Shown here one piece after another: positions 637 to 7,755 of a stretch of 64,000 nucleotides of DNA. Each line of letters begins with the position of its first letter. Position 1 is the first letter of the stretch. The notes under the pieces were generated by a model that was not told the DNA's origin, ran no database searches, and saw only the letters and a list, made by a program, of their open reading frames with translations. The position numbers and the translations under genes are program-made. Origin of the DNA: Candidatus Dependentiae bacterium (GTDB lineage: Bacteria; Babelota; Babeliae; Babelales; Vermiphilaceae); assembly GCA_020431705.1 (NCBI GenBank), contig JAGQHQ010000002.1:62001-126000 (forward strand). Direction: 5' to 3'.

Positions 637-1695
637 TCAAATAGCCTTGAAGTAAGCACATGGTATCCCATTGATTATTTTACTAGTTTGTTGATATTTA
701 TTTGTATCAATGTCTTTTTTAAATTTGATTGACCATTTATTATTTTTTTCTTCTACAAGAGTTCCATGATATGGGGTAATGCAAGAGTCTGGTGATAGGC
801 GAATTCCAAATTTTTTATCAATATATTTACTAAAATGTAGTGTTAGGCGTATATGATTACCGTATATGCTATTGTGAGAAAATATTTCATCCAAAAATTT
901 CCTCATTCTACTTTGTCTGGCCATGAGCTTAACAGCAATATCTTTAACAGATTTTTTTTGTATTATTTTTTTACCCTCTTGATAATCAAATTCTAGTAAA
1001 ATTCTTTGTTTTAGTGTTTCAGGTAGATTGTATTCAATGCTTGTTATAAAATCATCATTGTTTGGAGGATAACTATCAACGATGTTACGCATTGTCTTCT
1101 GGGCATTTTTAAGATCAACATTATAGAGGATCATATGTGACATATCCTGAGTTGTAATTAACGTAATGTATGCTAAATCTTGAGAAAGCTTTTTGAGTGT
1201 TGCTTCGTAGGTGCTAATTTCGTCATCAGTAACGTCAAAGAATTCACCAAAAAAAGTACCATCGCAAAAAATGGTTATATGTGCGCCTGGCTCATATATT
1301 CGAGAAATATCTTGGAAAATTGTATTGAGATATTCAAGTGATTTACGCTCTGCCATATCTGCACTTGTACTAATTACTTTTTTTTCAATGTTCTTTGATT
1401 TAAATGGGAATCCGACAACCAAAAATGCTAGTGGTGTTTTATGCGAGACAAAGGTGTTTATTTGTTGTATAAAAGCCTCTACGCCCTGGGCATGCTCTGG
1501 TTTCTGCTGTATGCCTTGACTAATGCTGCACTGATCTATATCAAATGTAATACGATGTTGCTCTAATATGGAGTAAATATGTTTAGCTACCATATAGCTA
1601 TTATTTTTTTTGTATAAAAATAATAATATCACACTTGTCATTAGGGAAAATGTTAGCGCGATAATGAAAATGGTAGAGTGTTTTTTTGATACCAT
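637..1695 (-). CDS. Isonitrile (isocyanide) synthase homologue, PvcA/Dit1 family, membrane-anchored
   Basis: The 352-residue protein matches the DIT1_PvcA (IsnA) family, whose characterised members condense an amino acid such as Tyr or Trp with ribulose-5-phosphate to form an isonitrile. Visible family blocks are FPFKSKN (about 96-102), the stretch ending YEPGAHITIFCDG (134-146), VTDDEISTYEATL (155-167), IRLTLHFS (282-289) and ITPYHGTLVE (305-314). Unlike typical cytosolic PvcA, residues 8-28 form a hydrophobic segment after a basic N-terminus, which looks like a signal anchor. It lies 63 bp downstream of a paralogue in the same orientation. No PvcB/IsnB oxygenase is visible nearby. Family assignment is strong; product and activity are unknown. 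Confidence 0.85.
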   Translation of the reverse strand: MVSKKHSTIFIIALTFSLMTSVILLFLYKKNNSYMVAKHIYSILEQHRITFDIDQCSISQGIQQKPEHAQGVEAFIQQINTFVSHKTPLAFLVVGFPFKSKNIEKKVISTSADMAERKSLEYLNTIFQDISRIYEPGAHITIFCDGTFFGEFFDVTDDEISTYEATLKKLSQDLAYITLITTQDMSHMILYNVDLKNAQKTMRNIVDSYPPNNDDFITSIEYNLPETLKQRILLEFDYQEGKKIIQKKSVKDIAVKLMARQSRMRKFLDEIFSHNSIYGNHIRLTLHFSKYIDKKFGIRLSPDSCITPYHGTLVEEKNNKWSIKFKKDIDTNKYQQTSKIINGIPCAYFKAI

Positions 1696-1758
1696 AGCTG
1701 TTTATCTTTCTTTCTATGTAAATATCTTTTTCTACATATGTAATATAGCGGTAGTGTG

Positions 1759-2946
1759 TTATTTTGATTGTGTAGCATCAACGTAATTTAACAAAAATCC
1801 ACCGTACTTGTATTGTTTTACTGGGAATTTTTTGACTAGATATCTATCGGTCAGTGTTACACTTTCCTTGTTAACGACAGGTGTCTTGTGCCATGGTGTA
1901 CCACGTACATTAAGTGTGGCCTGTAATCCAAGTTTTTCTTTGCTTCCATGAATAGAAGCGCGAATGTATTCTGTCTTGTAATTGGGTATTTCTTTTTCCA
2001 TAAATTTTCGTACCCGTTGGGAGCCGTCACTAATATCTTGTGCTAATTGTTGAGCGAGTTCTTTTGTGCGATTTTTGACTCCTAACTGAGATAAAATATA
2101 TGTATTAAAAAATCTGTATGCTAGATTGTTATGTTGTATTTCTTTATATGTTTTACCTTTAATTAAAGTATTATACTTTTGCTGTGTTGCAGTTTCCTTG
2201 TTTTGGAAGAATCGTTCTATACATTCTTTTTTTTCTTCTAAAAGTTGTGCAATGATATTATTTTTTATTCGTTCTTGCTTAATTTCTCCGTCTATAAAGG
2301 TTATATAATCACGAATATGTGGCAATGGTTGTACTGGAATACCCTGATATTCTTTAGTATAAAGTTCTTGAGGATTATCCATATGAAAAATAGATACATG
2401 ATCAAATAAAGCGATAAGTTGCCTCATTTTCTCTTGATATTTTTCAACAGATCCTACTTTAAATAATGGTTTGCCTGTCAGCTTTTTGCATGTTTCATCC
2501 ATATCGCTCAAGAAAAAATCATAAGGAAATGTGACAACATGTGCTCCTGGTTTATATACTTTATTGATCTGCTCACCAATATTATTGAGTGTTTTTAGTG
2601 CTATGAATTCACCAAAATCTGGTTCTATACCCAAAATTTTACGTTCAATATTAGATGATCGAGATGCAAAGCTTGGCACAATAAGGGTTATTAGTTTTTT
2701 TTGTTTGATACGAGATTGCAATAGTAAAACGAGTTGTTCTTTTTGCATTGTATCGCCACTTCCGCTGTGTTGTATGAGAAAGTCAGCTATTTTTTCAGCA
2801 ATACTACCTTGTGTATCATGGTTAATGGTTGGAAGTATTTTTATATAGTGTTGCGCTCCTGAAGGTAACGTTTTTGTTTCTTTCATTGCATAAAACGGTA
2901 TCTCAACAAGTAGTGCTATTATTAACAGCAGTTTTTTTATATTCAT
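1759..2946 (-). CDS. Second isonitrile synthase homologue (PvcA/Dit1 family), exported and divergent
   Basis: This 395-residue paralogue of the downstream gene begins with a signal peptide: hydrophobic residues 5-19 followed by YAMKET. Family blocks are LIVPSFASRSSNIERKILG (88-106), PDFGEFIALKTLNNI (109-123), YKPGAHVV (131-138), and near the C-terminus IRASIHGSKEKLGLQ and RGTPWHK. The Asp-Gly pair that follows the PGA block in most relatives, kept as CDG in the neighbour, is replaced here by PYDFFLSD. The copy may therefore have altered or lost activity. The pair was probably created by duplication and is likely co-transcribed. A catalytic role is inferred only. Confidence 0.78.
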   Translation of the reverse strand: MNIKKLLLIIALLVEIPFYAMKETKTLPSGAQHYIKILPTINHDTQGSIAEKIADFLIQHSGSGDTMQKEQLVLLLQSRIKQKKLITLIVPSFASRSSNIERKILGIEPDFGEFIALKTLNNIGEQINKVYKPGAHVVTFPYDFFLSDMDETCKKLTGKPLFKVGSVEKYQEKMRQLIALFDHVSIFHMDNPQELYTKEYQGIPVQPLPHIRDYITFIDGEIKQERIKNNIIAQLLEEKKECIERFFQNKETATQQKYNTLIKGKTYKEIQHNNLAYRFFNTYILSQLGVKNRTKELAQQLAQDISDGSQRVRKFMEKEIPNYKTEYIRASIHGSKEKLGLQATLNVRGTPWHKTPVVNKESVTLTDRYLVKKFPVKQYKYGGFLLNYVDATQSK

Positions 2947-3340: not shown

Positions 3341-4459
3341 TTAATATGATGAGTACATGTTGTAATATGCCATATTGATAATCAAACCAATCATGAAAAT
3401 GATGCATACAAGAGAAGTGTTACCATAGCTTACAAAAGGTAAACCAATTCCTTTGGTGGGGGCCAACCCAGTAGTAACTGCAAGGTTAATAATTGTTTGT
3501 AGCGAAATTAAAATAATAAAACCAAGAGTGGCGAATATACAAAATGAATCTTTCATCTGCCAGGCAAGCTTCATACCAAAATAAGTGAAAAGCATATATA
3601 AACTTATCAATAGTAACGAGCCAATAAATCCAGTTTCTTCTGCGATAATAGAGAAAATAAAGTCTGTGTGTTGCATGGGTAGATAAAAAAATTTTTGTTT
3701 TGAGTTGGAAATACCAATTCCACAAAAACTACCAGAACCAATTGCAATAAGTGATTGTATAATTTGAAATCCTGCGCCTTGTGGATCATTCCAGGGATTC
3801 AAAAAAGTTAAAATACGTTTTATGCGATAGGGTTTTATCAAAATAAGCGTAATGACAAGGGGAATGCATGTAGCAAATAGTGCAGATAAATAGGCTGCGT
3901 GAAATTGCCCGATAAAAAGAAGTGTGATAGCGGTTGTTGCCAATGTAATAGTCAAGCCAAAATCTGGTTGCTGTAATAAAATAATGCTAGTAATACCGAT
4001 AATTACTAAAAAGGGTAAATAAGTTCGTGCAAAAGAAATAGTACGACGTTCTCGTTTGCTTAAAAAATAGGCGATATATAAAACAAATGCAATTTTTAAT
4101 AATTCACTTGGTTGAAAGCTAAATCCAGCAATATTTAACCACCTACTTGAACCGTGAATACGATAAGAGATTATAGGTATTAGCGTAAGTGCAGTAAGAG
4201 AGAGTGTGCCAATAAATAAGAGTGGGCTTAATTTTTTTATTAAATTCAATGGGGTAAAACGTGCAATAATAAAACCAACAATACCGAGTGATAAGCCGAA
4301 TAATTGTTTTTTTATAAAATAATGAGAAAAACCAAATGTTTCTAGTGCATAAACTGAACTTGCTGAGTAAATAAAAAGACACCCAATTAAAATAAGGATT
4401 ACAGTAATACCAATAAAAATACGTAAATCAATTTTTGTTTGTGCATGTTTAACAATCAT
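3341..4459 (-). CDS. ftsW: SEDS-family peptidoglycan glycosyltransferase FtsW
   Basis: This 372-residue polytopic membrane protein has the SEDS pattern: YSASSV near the first helix, GSSRWLNIAGFSFQPSELLKI, QQPDFGLT, and QHTDFIFSIIAEETGF in the large periplasmic loop, ending with KGIGLPFVSYGNTSL. SEDS proteins polymerise lipid II with a partner class B PBP; FtsW does so at the division septum. FtsW is favoured over RodA because murD is the next minus-strand gene upstream, as in the division-and-cell-wall (dcw) cluster. A TTGACA/TACGAT promoter lies 52 bp upstream of the start, so the gene appears to be transcribed independently of murD. Confidence 0.88.
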   Translation of the reverse strand: MIVKHAQTKIDLRIFIGITVILILIGCLFIYSASSVYALETFGFSHYFIKKQLFGLSLGIVGFIIARFTPLNLIKKLSPLLFIGTLSLTALTLIPIISYRIHGSSRWLNIAGFSFQPSELLKIAFVLYIAYFLSKRERRTISFARTYLPFLVIIGITSIILLQQPDFGLTITLATTAITLLFIGQFHAAYLSALFATCIPLVITLILIKPYRIKRILTFLNPWNDPQGAGFQIIQSLIAIGSGSFCGIGISNSKQKFFYLPMQHTDFIFSIIAEETGFIGSLLLISLYMLFTYFGMKLAWQMKDSFCIFATLGFIILISLQTIINLAVTTGLAPTKGIGLPFVSYGNTSLVCIIFMIGLIINMAYYNMYSSY

Positions 4460-4754: not shown

Positions 4755-5490
4755 GAGCGAATTGTGAAATTAAAAAATAAGTAAAAATAGAGTAGGCTAG
4801 CTTCGTTTTTTGGAAAAAAAAAGGAACTAGCCAATGCTAAAAAGCATAGAAGAAGTTTACTACATAATTGACGAAATTGTACAGAACGGAATTACACAAA
4901 AATCAAAACAAGGACGCAAAAGTAAGATGACAGTAAGCGAAGTGATTACAGTTCTAATCGAAGGTCACAAAAGAAATTTCTTTACAGAGAAACAACTTTA
5001 TAGGTTGATTCGAGCAGAGCTTTCAGGATGTTTTAAAAATATTCCAAGCTATCCACAATTTACTCGGTCAATTAGAAAAGCTTTGCCATATATAGATCTT
5101 GTTTTAGCTGTTTTTACAAAAATTAACGCAAAAAAGTATCAAGAGTTTTGCATTATTGACTCAAGCTCACTGCCCGTATCTGGGTATAACAGAAAAAACG
5201 TTAAGTGGGCTTTAAATTCTGCTGGCATAGGCAAAAATATGCATGGATATTATCAGGGTTTTAAACTTCATATAATAATTAATCAAAATCGAGAGATCGT
5301 TTCTGTTGCGACTACCCCGGCTAATGTACATGATGTAAAAATGCTAAACGATGATCAATTTATAGCACATATAAAAGGTCTTTTGATAGGCGATAAGGGT
5401 TACATTGCGCAAGTAAAGACTGCTGTTTTAGCCTACATGTTTAGGACTTTTGAATCGGATGTATCGATTTTTTAATTTCACAATTCGCTC
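4755..5490 (+). mobile_element. IS982-like insertion element, 736 bp, perfect inverted ends and 8-bp target duplication
   Basis: The two ends are perfect 24-bp inverted repeats: 4755-4778 begins GAGCGAATTGTG, and its reverse complement is at 5467-5490. Both sides carry the same 8-bp direct repeat CCTATAAT (4747-4754 and 5491-5498), a clean target-site duplication. The only gene inside is the short transposase. IS982-family elements are usually about 1 kb, so this copy seems to have lost internal sequence. Intact ends and identical duplications point to recent insertion. Confidence 0.88.
4834..5475 (+). CDS. IS982-family transposase, internally shortened
   Basis: The 213-residue protein has the IS982/DDE layout: an N-terminal helical region, the first catalytic Asp in CIIDSSSLPV (about 107-116), a GFKLHIIIN strand, and the second Asp in LLIGDKGYI (about 187-195). 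Full-length relatives are about 290-310 residues with a later catalytic Glu. Here the sequence jumps from GDKGYIAQ to a short tail, AVLAYMFRTF, resembling the family's C-terminal end, and stops inside the right inverted repeat. The third acidic residue is absent, so the enzyme is probably inactive, although the ends could be mobilised in trans. The in-frame-deletion reading is inferred. Confidence 0.85.
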   Translation: MLKSIEEVYYIIDEIVQNGITQKSKQGRKSKMTVSEVITVLIEGHKRNFFTEKQLYRLIRAELSGCFKNIPSYPQFTRSIRKALPYIDLVLAVFTKINAKKYQEFCIIDSSSLPVSGYNRKNVKWALNSAGIGKNMHGYYQGFKLHIIINQNREIVSVATTPANVHDVKMLNDDQFIAHIKGLLIGDKGYIAQVKTAVLAYMFRTFESDVSIF

Positions 5491-5588
5491 CCTATAATAT
5501 AGGGATATTTTAATTATGAATAATAAGCAATCTTATTTTAAAGTATTTATGAATTTTGGGATAGGTTCTAAAATTAAGAATAACAATA

Positions 5589-7133
5589 ATGAAGATATTA
5601 CAGAATAGATATAAGACAGTTATTTTTATTGTAGTTTTCACTTTTACATCAGGTTTTTTGCATGCAATGGAAGAGAAAAAACAAGTTGTATGGAATCATA
5701 ATAATGATGATGCTGAATTTCAATCTCGTATTTTTTGGTATCAAAAAGACTATTTACGAAAGATTTTTGAACCTATTTGTACACGTTTATGCACTTGTGA
5801 AAAACAAGTGGATCTTAAGCACTATATTATACCTGCTGTTATAGGAGGATCTTTCTTAGTCGGCGGTATTTATAGTTTATATAAAGGAAATTTTAAGACA
5901 GCCGTAGCCTGTGCTGGTGGTAGTATGGCATCATGCTTGTTTTTTCCTGCTGGTACATTTGCTCAGAGAGAATTTGATACTAGTAATCAATATAAAAAGA
6001 TTAAGAAACATCTTTTAAAAAAGATTAAAGAAGAACCAATATATCCATTGTATCCTGGGTGTGATAAGTTTACCACTGATGCAATTCGAGACCTGTATCA
6101 GGCGCCGCAAAAATTTAATAATGAATATAAAACATCAGATATGGTAGCTTCGTGGATATGCACGACTAAGACAAAAAGAAATAAATTATTTAATGATATA
6201 AATAATAAGCGCGCCCAAATGCCATTAATACACTTTTTTTTAAGTTTTTTATTTCCGAAGAAAAGAGAAAATTACGATGCTATATATAACGGTGGGTTAC
6301 ACAATATCATGTATATGTATAATGGCGAGTTATGCGATACTATATATAAAGGTATTATTATCGATTTACGAGAGTATACAATGCATTTGTTTGATGTATT
6401 AGGAAAAAAAGAAATCGATAAAATACTTACTCAACAAAAAAAAGATAATGGGAACTGTAGGCAAAAACTAAGCGCACAAGCATTTTCTTTTTTTATAAAA
6501 AATATTAATGAAAAACAACTAAATCGTTATCTTAATAGATTTTTGTCGTTTCAAAGTGTGAATACAACATCAAACACAAAAAAAGAAAAAAAATGTGTGA
6601 ACTCTACTCATGCTGCTGTTACAATACAAGATCTAGATAATTTTTCTATTAAGGTACACAATCTTCAAATAGGCTTTAAATATAATGCTTTGTATGTTTT
6701 ATATGCTGCGTTACAAGAAGGTGTTTTTGCAAAAAGTGATCACGCTGTTTTTACAAAAAAAATTCTTGGAACAACGCTATCTGCTACAAGGCCAATACAG
6801 ATGTGTTTTTGTAGTCATGCAGAGATACTTTTTGGTAAACGAGGGAGTGGTGTGAATGAGAAAGTTGATTCTGTAAAATTTCAAAGTACTTTGTGTAAAA
6901 ATGATAAATTTCATCGTTTTTATAATATAATGAATCCTCGTAATATTGATAAATTACCCTTTGATTTGGCTAATTTTAGTATCTATGAAAATGTGGTAGA
7001 TCTGCTATTTCAAAAAGTTAGTAATACAGATTTTTGTACATTTCCTATGTCTATCAATGATTTTAATATATTGCGAAAGATGAATGTTGTAGCATTGGAA
7101 TGTTATCTACAAAATATATTAAAGAAAGATTAG
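5589..7133 (+). CDS. Exported protein of unknown function, family A copy 1, ended by a premature amber codon
   Basis: The 514-residue product starts with a signal peptide ending GFLHAMEEKK. Residues about 78-122 form a glycine-rich hydrophobic hairpin (PAVIGGSFLVGGIYS, then AGGSMASCLFFPAGTFAQREFD) that is almost identical in the gene at 7756. The remainder is lysine-rich with cysteine pairs and matches no family I recognise. Alignment to the paralogue continues in the same frame past the TAG at 7131-7133, where the paralogue has TGG (Trp). The annotated end is therefore probably a nonsense mutation. It lies in the plus-strand island between ftsW and murD, just after the IS. Confidence 0.8.
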   Translation: MKILQNRYKTVIFIVVFTFTSGFLHAMEEKKQVVWNHNNDDAEFQSRIFWYQKDYLRKIFEPICTRLCTCEKQVDLKHYIIPAVIGGSFLVGGIYSLYKGNFKTAVACAGGSMASCLFFPAGTFAQREFDTSNQYKKIKKHLLKKIKEEPIYPLYPGCDKFTTDAIRDLYQAPQKFNNEYKTSDMVASWICTTKTKRNKLFNDINNKRAQMPLIHFFLSFLFPKKRENYDAIYNGGLHNIMYMYNGELCDTIYKGIIIDLREYTMHLFDVLGKKEIDKILTQQKKDNGNCRQKLSAQAFSFFIKNINEKQLNRYLNRFLSFQSVNTTSNTKKEKKCVNSTHAAVTIQDLDNFSIKVHNLQIGFKYNALYVLYAALQEGVFAKSDHAVFTKKILGTTLSATRPIQMCFCSHAEILFGKRGSGVNEKVDSVKFQSTLCKNDKFHRFYNIMNPRNIDKLPFDLANFSIYENVVDLLFQKVSNTDFCTFPMSINDFNILRKMNVVALECYLQNILKKD

Positions 7134-7388
7134 TATACTAATGTAATGACTAACTATCATAAGAGAGCAGAGTTGCTTCCAACATGGAAGTTATTTGTGA
7201 TGTGGAACCTTTGTATTGGGAAAGGTATTTTGGAAGAAAAAAACATGGAAAAAGAAGTGTTGTATAAAAACGGAGATGGAGGTGTGCGAGTTTTTGTTTA
7301 TTTACCTGATGAAATAATAGGAAGGATACGGTGGCATTTATTGGCGAGCTTAGGTATATTTTTAGAGAATATGTTTTATAGGATCTAA
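7134..7388 (+). pseudogene. In-frame C-terminal remnant of family A copy 1, downstream of the amber codon
   Basis: Reading on in the same frame after TAG gives YTNVMTNYHKRAELL and later YKNGDGGVRVFVYLPDEII. These match the paralogue's WYSGVVHDYKTRIKLL and YKDGDGKGFPVYLPREII at the same spacing. An ATG at 7146 opens an 80-codon frame here, but it has no convincing ribosome binding site. It is best read as the detached tail of the preceding gene, either dead or reached by readthrough. Confidence 0.72.
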
Positions 7389-7622
7389 TATTTTTTTACT
7401 CCACGCGTTAAAATGCTTGAAAATACTATTCAAATTGCCGTATCTTTCATATTTTTTTTCAATACTATCATATAAAAAATCTCTACTGTTTTAAAAAGTC
7501 AATAAAGCCTAAGTACAATACTTATCGATCTCACCAATATTTACAATAATTACCTCCTTGGCAATACTATAAAAATACTTGTGCCTAAAAGTCTCATATG
7601 TATTGACTTTAAGTGTTTTTCT

Positions 7623-7646
7623 ATTATGCAATAATTATTGCATAAT
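7623..7646. repeat. 24-bp perfect palindrome in a 367-bp gene-free region
   Basis: The sequence centred on AATAATTATT at 7634/7635 is its own reverse complement over 24 bases, with half-site ATTATGCAATAA. It lies 20 bp after a TTGACT hexamer (7603-7608) and 109 bp before the next gene's start. It may be a repressor operator or a chance AT-rich palindrome. The rest of 7389-7755 shows no gene or RNA that I can recognise. Confidence 0.45.
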
Positions 7647-7755
7647 GCAGAAAAATTGTTATAATAGTTTTAATCATATTTTTGACAATTCAGTTGTGGT
7701 TTTTTACTTCAAAGAACTTTTAGTGGTAAAAAATGCTATTTTTTCGGGGTATGCT

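Follow-up and report, generated by a model that had tools for sequence, protein, structure and literature searches.

A candidate exported isonitrile-synthase-type enzyme and its altered paralogue in intracellular bacteria of two phyla

Ribulose-5-phosphate, a cytosolic metabolite, is the known donor of PvcA-type enzymes. The canonical PvcA-type genes that we examined encode proteins without export signals, and PvcB is their usual partner. Tandem isonitrile synthases are known from cyanobacteria, namely AmbI1/AmbI2 and WelI1/WelI2 (PMC5974471, PMC4236562). Yeast Dit1 belongs to the same family and illustrates that its members need not make isonitriles (PMC7345447). Here we describe a further pair of family members, termed A and B, from a window of 64,000 nucleotides, the whole stretch of DNA that was analysed, on contig C2 of a 1.11-Mb genome of the phylum Dependentiota. 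Dependentiae are described as long-standing parasites (PMC6561590), and the Holosporales, in which the same pair was found, as living in obligate association with eukaryotes (PMC11909080).

Both genes are located on the minus strand, B (1759..2946, 395 aa) being followed after 63 bases by A (637..1695, 352 aa), exactly where an earlier note on this DNA had placed two adjacent family genes (637-2946). An ftsW/rodA gene (3341-4459) lies 5′ of B on the same strand, and a gene called thymidylate-synthase-ThyX-like by its sequence lies 3′ of A; the genome contains no PF05141 genes other than these two. Elsewhere in the window, positions 4834-9447 hold a DDE transposase gene (PF13612) and, behind it, two genes (5589-7133 and 7579-9447) whose products look exported, resemble each other and are of unknown family, apparently as the result of a duplication.

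Membership in the PvcA/IsnA/Dit1 family, as previously claimed, was confirmed by searches with PF05141 (DIT1_PvcA; curated Pfam cut-off 26.4 bits), against which A scores 133.8 bits (1.1e-38, profile positions 1-271 of 273) and B 78.3 bits (9e-22, profile positions 2-260). With 92.5 and 36.1 bits, respectively, both proteins fall below the 600-bit cut-off of the NCBIfam equivalog NF045653 (L-tyrosine isonitrile synthase PvcA). Structure prediction agrees with the family placement. The nearest solved structures by phmmer are PIsnA and PvcA, and these are also the sole strong Foldseek matches of the AlphaFold models, which were computed from six sequences for A and eleven for B and each have a mean pLDDT of 80.6. 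The A model matches PIsnA/PvcA with E 2e-18 and TM 0.71/0.78, and the B model with E 5e-13 and TM about 0.5/0.65, in poorer superposition; both have the PvcA/PIsnA fold. A relationship of A to tyrosyl- or tryptophanyl-tRNA synthetases was set aside, as the structural matches were weak (E about 0.01, TM <0.3).

In a motif-by-motif comparison, FPxKSxN, DxAER, DG, H, KxGI and TPxHG occur in A as in PvcA and PIsnA, and all the NF045653-type motifs (FPxKSxN, DMAER, PGA, SDG, RLSxH, KxGI and TPWHG) are found in A with conservative changes. The blocks read GFPFKSKN from residue 95, DMAER (residues 113-117; 1345..1359, minus strand), YEPGAH from residue 134, CDG from residue 144, IRLTLH from residue 282 and TPYHG (residues 307-311; 763..777, minus strand), the last being TPWHG in PvcA and PIsnA; KFGI is present as well. 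Within the first block, FPFKSKN (residues 96-102; 1390..1410, minus strand) is shared by all cytosolic references aligned. Read from this conservation, A is probably a catalytic enzyme. We judge it unlikely that A is an exported enzyme of this fold devoted to another reaction, be it the N-formylation proposed for yeast Dit1 or a reaction with a different sugar phosphate or amine, and yielding no isonitrile: all motif blocks common to PvcA and PIsnA are retained. Such a reading draws on Dit1 itself, which appears to make formyl-tyrosine and not an isocyanide (PMC7345447), on the distance of the A clade from PvcA and PIsnA (22-25% identity for A in the structural alignment; about 130 bits against PF05141 versus about 280 for canonical members) and on the missing PvcB partner. 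The earlier note had seen no PvcB-type oxygenase nearby, and PF02668 indeed has no match anywhere in the window genome (G000). The same profile finds nothing in 12 of the 14 carrier genomes; G529 and G460 have single, non-adjacent matches.

The corresponding blocks of B are SFASRSSN, DFGEF, YKPGAH, PYD in place of SDG, IRASIH and TPWHK (residues 350-354; 1885..1899, minus strand), in which the Gly after His is replaced. Several NF045653-type conserved motifs fail in B, and some residues common to every cytosolic reference aligned are lost. The Arg of DxxER is absent throughout the B group, and the Pro and His of TPWH are present in all complete copies. Hence, the ordered motif blocks reported earlier are complete in A and partly changed in B. 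Likewise, the description of the locus as tandem isonitrile synthase homologues stands as regards family and tandem arrangement; two equivalent synthases would be too strong a claim, because B has lost residues kept by every aligned cytosolic reference. One apparently intact enzyme with an altered paralogue fits the pair better. Two B copies (L038:9128-10245 in G102 and L067:2884-3474 in G116) contain a frame break or early stop, which may be decay or a draft assembly error. The second gene of G529 (L087:6399-7532) was excluded as a B, having no Pfam match and only weak profile similarity.

Among 101 Dependentiota genomes, PF05141 occurs in three: the window genome, G078, which encodes A, B and a second B (named C), and G055, which has two loci with A and B at each. 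A profile scan of the genome contigs with an alignment as query gave five loci, and the same contigs gave zero matches with A as a single-protein query. The census also places the A+B pair in the order of Finniella (Holosporales, endosymbionts of protists), in which 9 of 42 genomes have PF05141, mostly as such pairs. A is followed by B both in Candidatus Finniella inopinata and in an alphaproteobacterial MAG related to it, B being frame-broken in the MAG. In another alphaproteobacterial order, PF05141 is present in 3 of 17 genomes, two of them with an export-type A. The family is rare among the 385 Alphaproteobacteria and 399 Pseudomonadota sampled, where canonical high-scoring genes come from genomes of 4-7 Mb; the three canonical genes of the Pseudomonadota sample, from free-living bacteria, all encode proteins without a signal, and a PvcB-like gene adjoins two of them. 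The exported form is confined to small-genome lineages among the genomes sampled. Plasmid relatives from Streptomyces, Burkholderia and Microvirga are all without export signals, and no relatives of A or B were found in the viral contigs, phages and viral structures searched. The pair seems to be dispensable in places, since G102 and G116 have an interrupted B, and the A protein of G128 has lost its export signal as well as its motifs.

A and B each form one clade (support 90/93 and 95/96, respectively). Within the A tree, the proteins of the window and G078 group with Finniella (99/99) and G055 groups with G127b (91/90); B of G055 groups with B of G127b in the first of two trees (98/94). Monophyly of the Dependentiota A proteins is rejected (lnL 49.5 worse, AU p=2.2e-6), which indicates that the gene has passed between phyla. 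Together, the two clades and the groupings across phyla point to an old duplication and to subsequent movement, and probably the pair, not just a single gene, was transferred. Two close pairs give dN/dS values of 0.15 and 0.21 (A) and of 0.18 and 0.44 (B); these low values argue for purifying selection on both.

The N-termini of both proteins are of the export type, in line with what had been noticed from the sequence. A has a hydrophobic segment of the signal-anchor type at residues 9-28 (IFIIALTFSLMTSVILLFLY; 1612..1671, minus strand), and residues 1-20 of B resemble a signal peptide ending in ...PFYA (MNIKKLLLIIALLVEIPFYA; 2887..2946, minus strand). Measured as the best 12-residue Kyte-Doolittle mean, N-terminal hydrophobicity reaches 2.42 in A and 2.78 in B, compared with ≤1.57 in cytosolic PF05141 relatives (n=8) and ≤1.50 in window proteins taken as cytosolic (n=13; families named by eye from sequence, without Pfam). 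Orthologues retain this property: the 29 A and B N-termini range from 1.62 to 3.33, except for A of G128 (1.28), and exceed those of the cytosolic relatives (Mann-Whitney p=1.8e-7, the rows being related and non-independent). Export-type N-termini are common in the carrier genomes, and a strict home-made signal test did not set the pair apart from this background, as it flagged 40-46% of soluble-type open reading frames and only 16 of 27 A/B N-termini. This test being too blunt, we place the weight on the comparison with cytosolic relatives. The segments differ in kind, with anchors in Dependentiota A and signal peptides with cleavage-type sites (AHS/ES) in the Finniella group; A of G108 carries a lipobox (LSSC). 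Orthologues in a second phylum strengthen the earlier idea of export and suggest that a reaction usually confined to the cytoplasm may take place at or beyond the bacterial cell membrane. None of the findings that would have spoken against the earlier note, namely a missing PF05141 match, an unrelated fold or orthologues lacking N-terminal signals, was made, A of G128 being the one protein without such a signal.

At three of the four Dependentiota loci, amino-acid ABC importer genes are in an operon with the pair. In G078, A, B and C are followed, with a 4-base overlap, by the gene for a PF04392 solute-binding protein and then by those for a PF02653 permease and an ATPase. Contig 73 of G055 encodes a permease, an ATPase and a PF04392 protein, followed by B and A, and on contig 90 A lies 10 bases downstream of genes for a PF00528 permease and for an ATPase. 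PF04392/PF02653 systems include the TrpXYZ tryptophan/tyrosine importers, and the importer operons make aromatic amino acids testable substrates. The link is absent from the locus of the window genome and from the Finniella loci; no PF04392 gene was found on searching the window genome, and its two PF00497 proteins are encoded on contigs other than that of the pair. G052, a Dependentiota genome of about 1 Mb, has about 20 PF04392 TrpX-type matches versus none to four in the other listed genomes. Neighbours seen in single cases, namely transketolase in G127a, LysE in G127b and, in G116, a ZnuA-type zinc-binding protein gene divergent to A (L067:345-1307), were kept out of the explanation. Transketolase genes adjoin PF05141 genes in two alphaproteobacterial genomes (L065:2-592 and L081:5920-8760); these two cases fit a pentose-phosphate substrate.

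The operons bear on two further readings. The hydrophobic segment of A might serve only as an anchor, with the catalytic domain in the cytoplasm and next to an amino-acid importer, where tyrosine or tryptophan would be trapped immediately on entry and combined with the cytosolic pool of ribulose-5-phosphate. The donor would then be in the appropriate compartment, ribulose-phosphate epimerase (Rpe) is encoded in all 14 carrier genomes, and the shared operons at three of four loci agree with such coupling. In addition, the charges flanking the signal anchors of Dependentiota A give no clear orientation, and the A domain could therefore face the cytoplasm. We nevertheless consider a membrane-tethered cytosolic enzyme improbable, as the cleavage-type sites of Finniella-type A and the lipobox of G108 A imply that the mature A domain is outside; B also carries signal peptides, and in the window genome the pair lacks an importer gene as a neighbour. 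Reuse of the fold by an exported, non-catalytic pair that binds or senses aromatic amino acids in the periplasm and feeds the neighbouring importer is, in our estimation, very doubtful. Operons with TrpX-type or His/Gln-type importers and the loss of conserved residues from B would suit this role, but both PF04392 loci already have a solute-binding protein of their own, and A retains, under purifying selection, residues that a mere binding protein could do without.

On the basis of these results, we tentatively propose, with somewhat less than even confidence, an exported isonitrile-synthase-type enzyme and an altered exported partner, forming a cassette among intracellular bacteria that would act on aromatic amino acids at the envelope. 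A and B would be exchanged between phyla as one unit. The N-terminal segment would carry A across the inner membrane or hold it there, and B, a paralogue that would likewise be exported, is altered in its active site and has accompanied A from the old duplication onwards, would probably serve as a partner subunit or catalyse a second step. Working on the outer side of the inner membrane, A would take a one-carbon unit off a pentose phosphate and attach it to the amino group of its substrate, most likely tyrosine, tryptophan or an amino acid resembling them; pores in the outer membrane could admit both substrates from the host cytosol to the periplasm. This would yield an isocyano (or formyl) amino acid able to bind metals, which may stay in the envelope or be taken up again through the neighbouring amino-acid importer; release to the host is one of several fates proposed. 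Compartment, substrates, product, including its isonitrile nature, and the role of B are what we infer for this scheme. Its main difficulty is the cytosolic location of the donor ribulose-5-phosphate, for which we assume a periplasmic supply.

Isocyanides bind metals. This property and the copper starvation reported upon overexpression of a fungal isocyanide synthase (PMC5974471) make a metal-related role a reasonable lead and no more. In its fullest form, which we regard as rather unlikely as a whole, the proposal holds that obligately intracellular bacteria from two or more phyla have in common a horizontally transferred, exported two-protein isonitrile synthase that works outside the bacterial cytoplasm on host-derived tyrosine or tryptophan and pentose phosphate, giving a metal-binding or host-acting isocyanide between symbiont and host. 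A separate clade with export-type N-termini, retained as a pair and moving between Dependentiota and Holosporales-type endosymbionts, would put isonitrile chemistry in a new setting. It would also be one of the few concrete candidates for small-molecule production at the interface of symbiont and host, and would offer testable substrates for lineages about whose dealings with their hosts little is known.

Compared with known systems, A shares PF05141, the fold and the ordered motifs with PvcA of Pseudomonas aeruginosa (PDB 3e59) and PIsnA (PDB 9dh4, 9dhm). The window pair differs from both in its export-type N-termini, its low identity, the lack of PvcB and the adjoining divergent paralogue. 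Yeast Dit1, in contrast to A and B, is cytosolic and has neither signal peptide nor membrane segment (PMC7345447). AmbI1/AmbI2 and WelI1/WelI2 resemble the window pair in providing two family members per cluster. Those genes sit in hapalindole-type alkaloid clusters, whereas A and B are without a biosynthetic cluster and are distinguished by their export-type N-termini and by the altered active site of one member.
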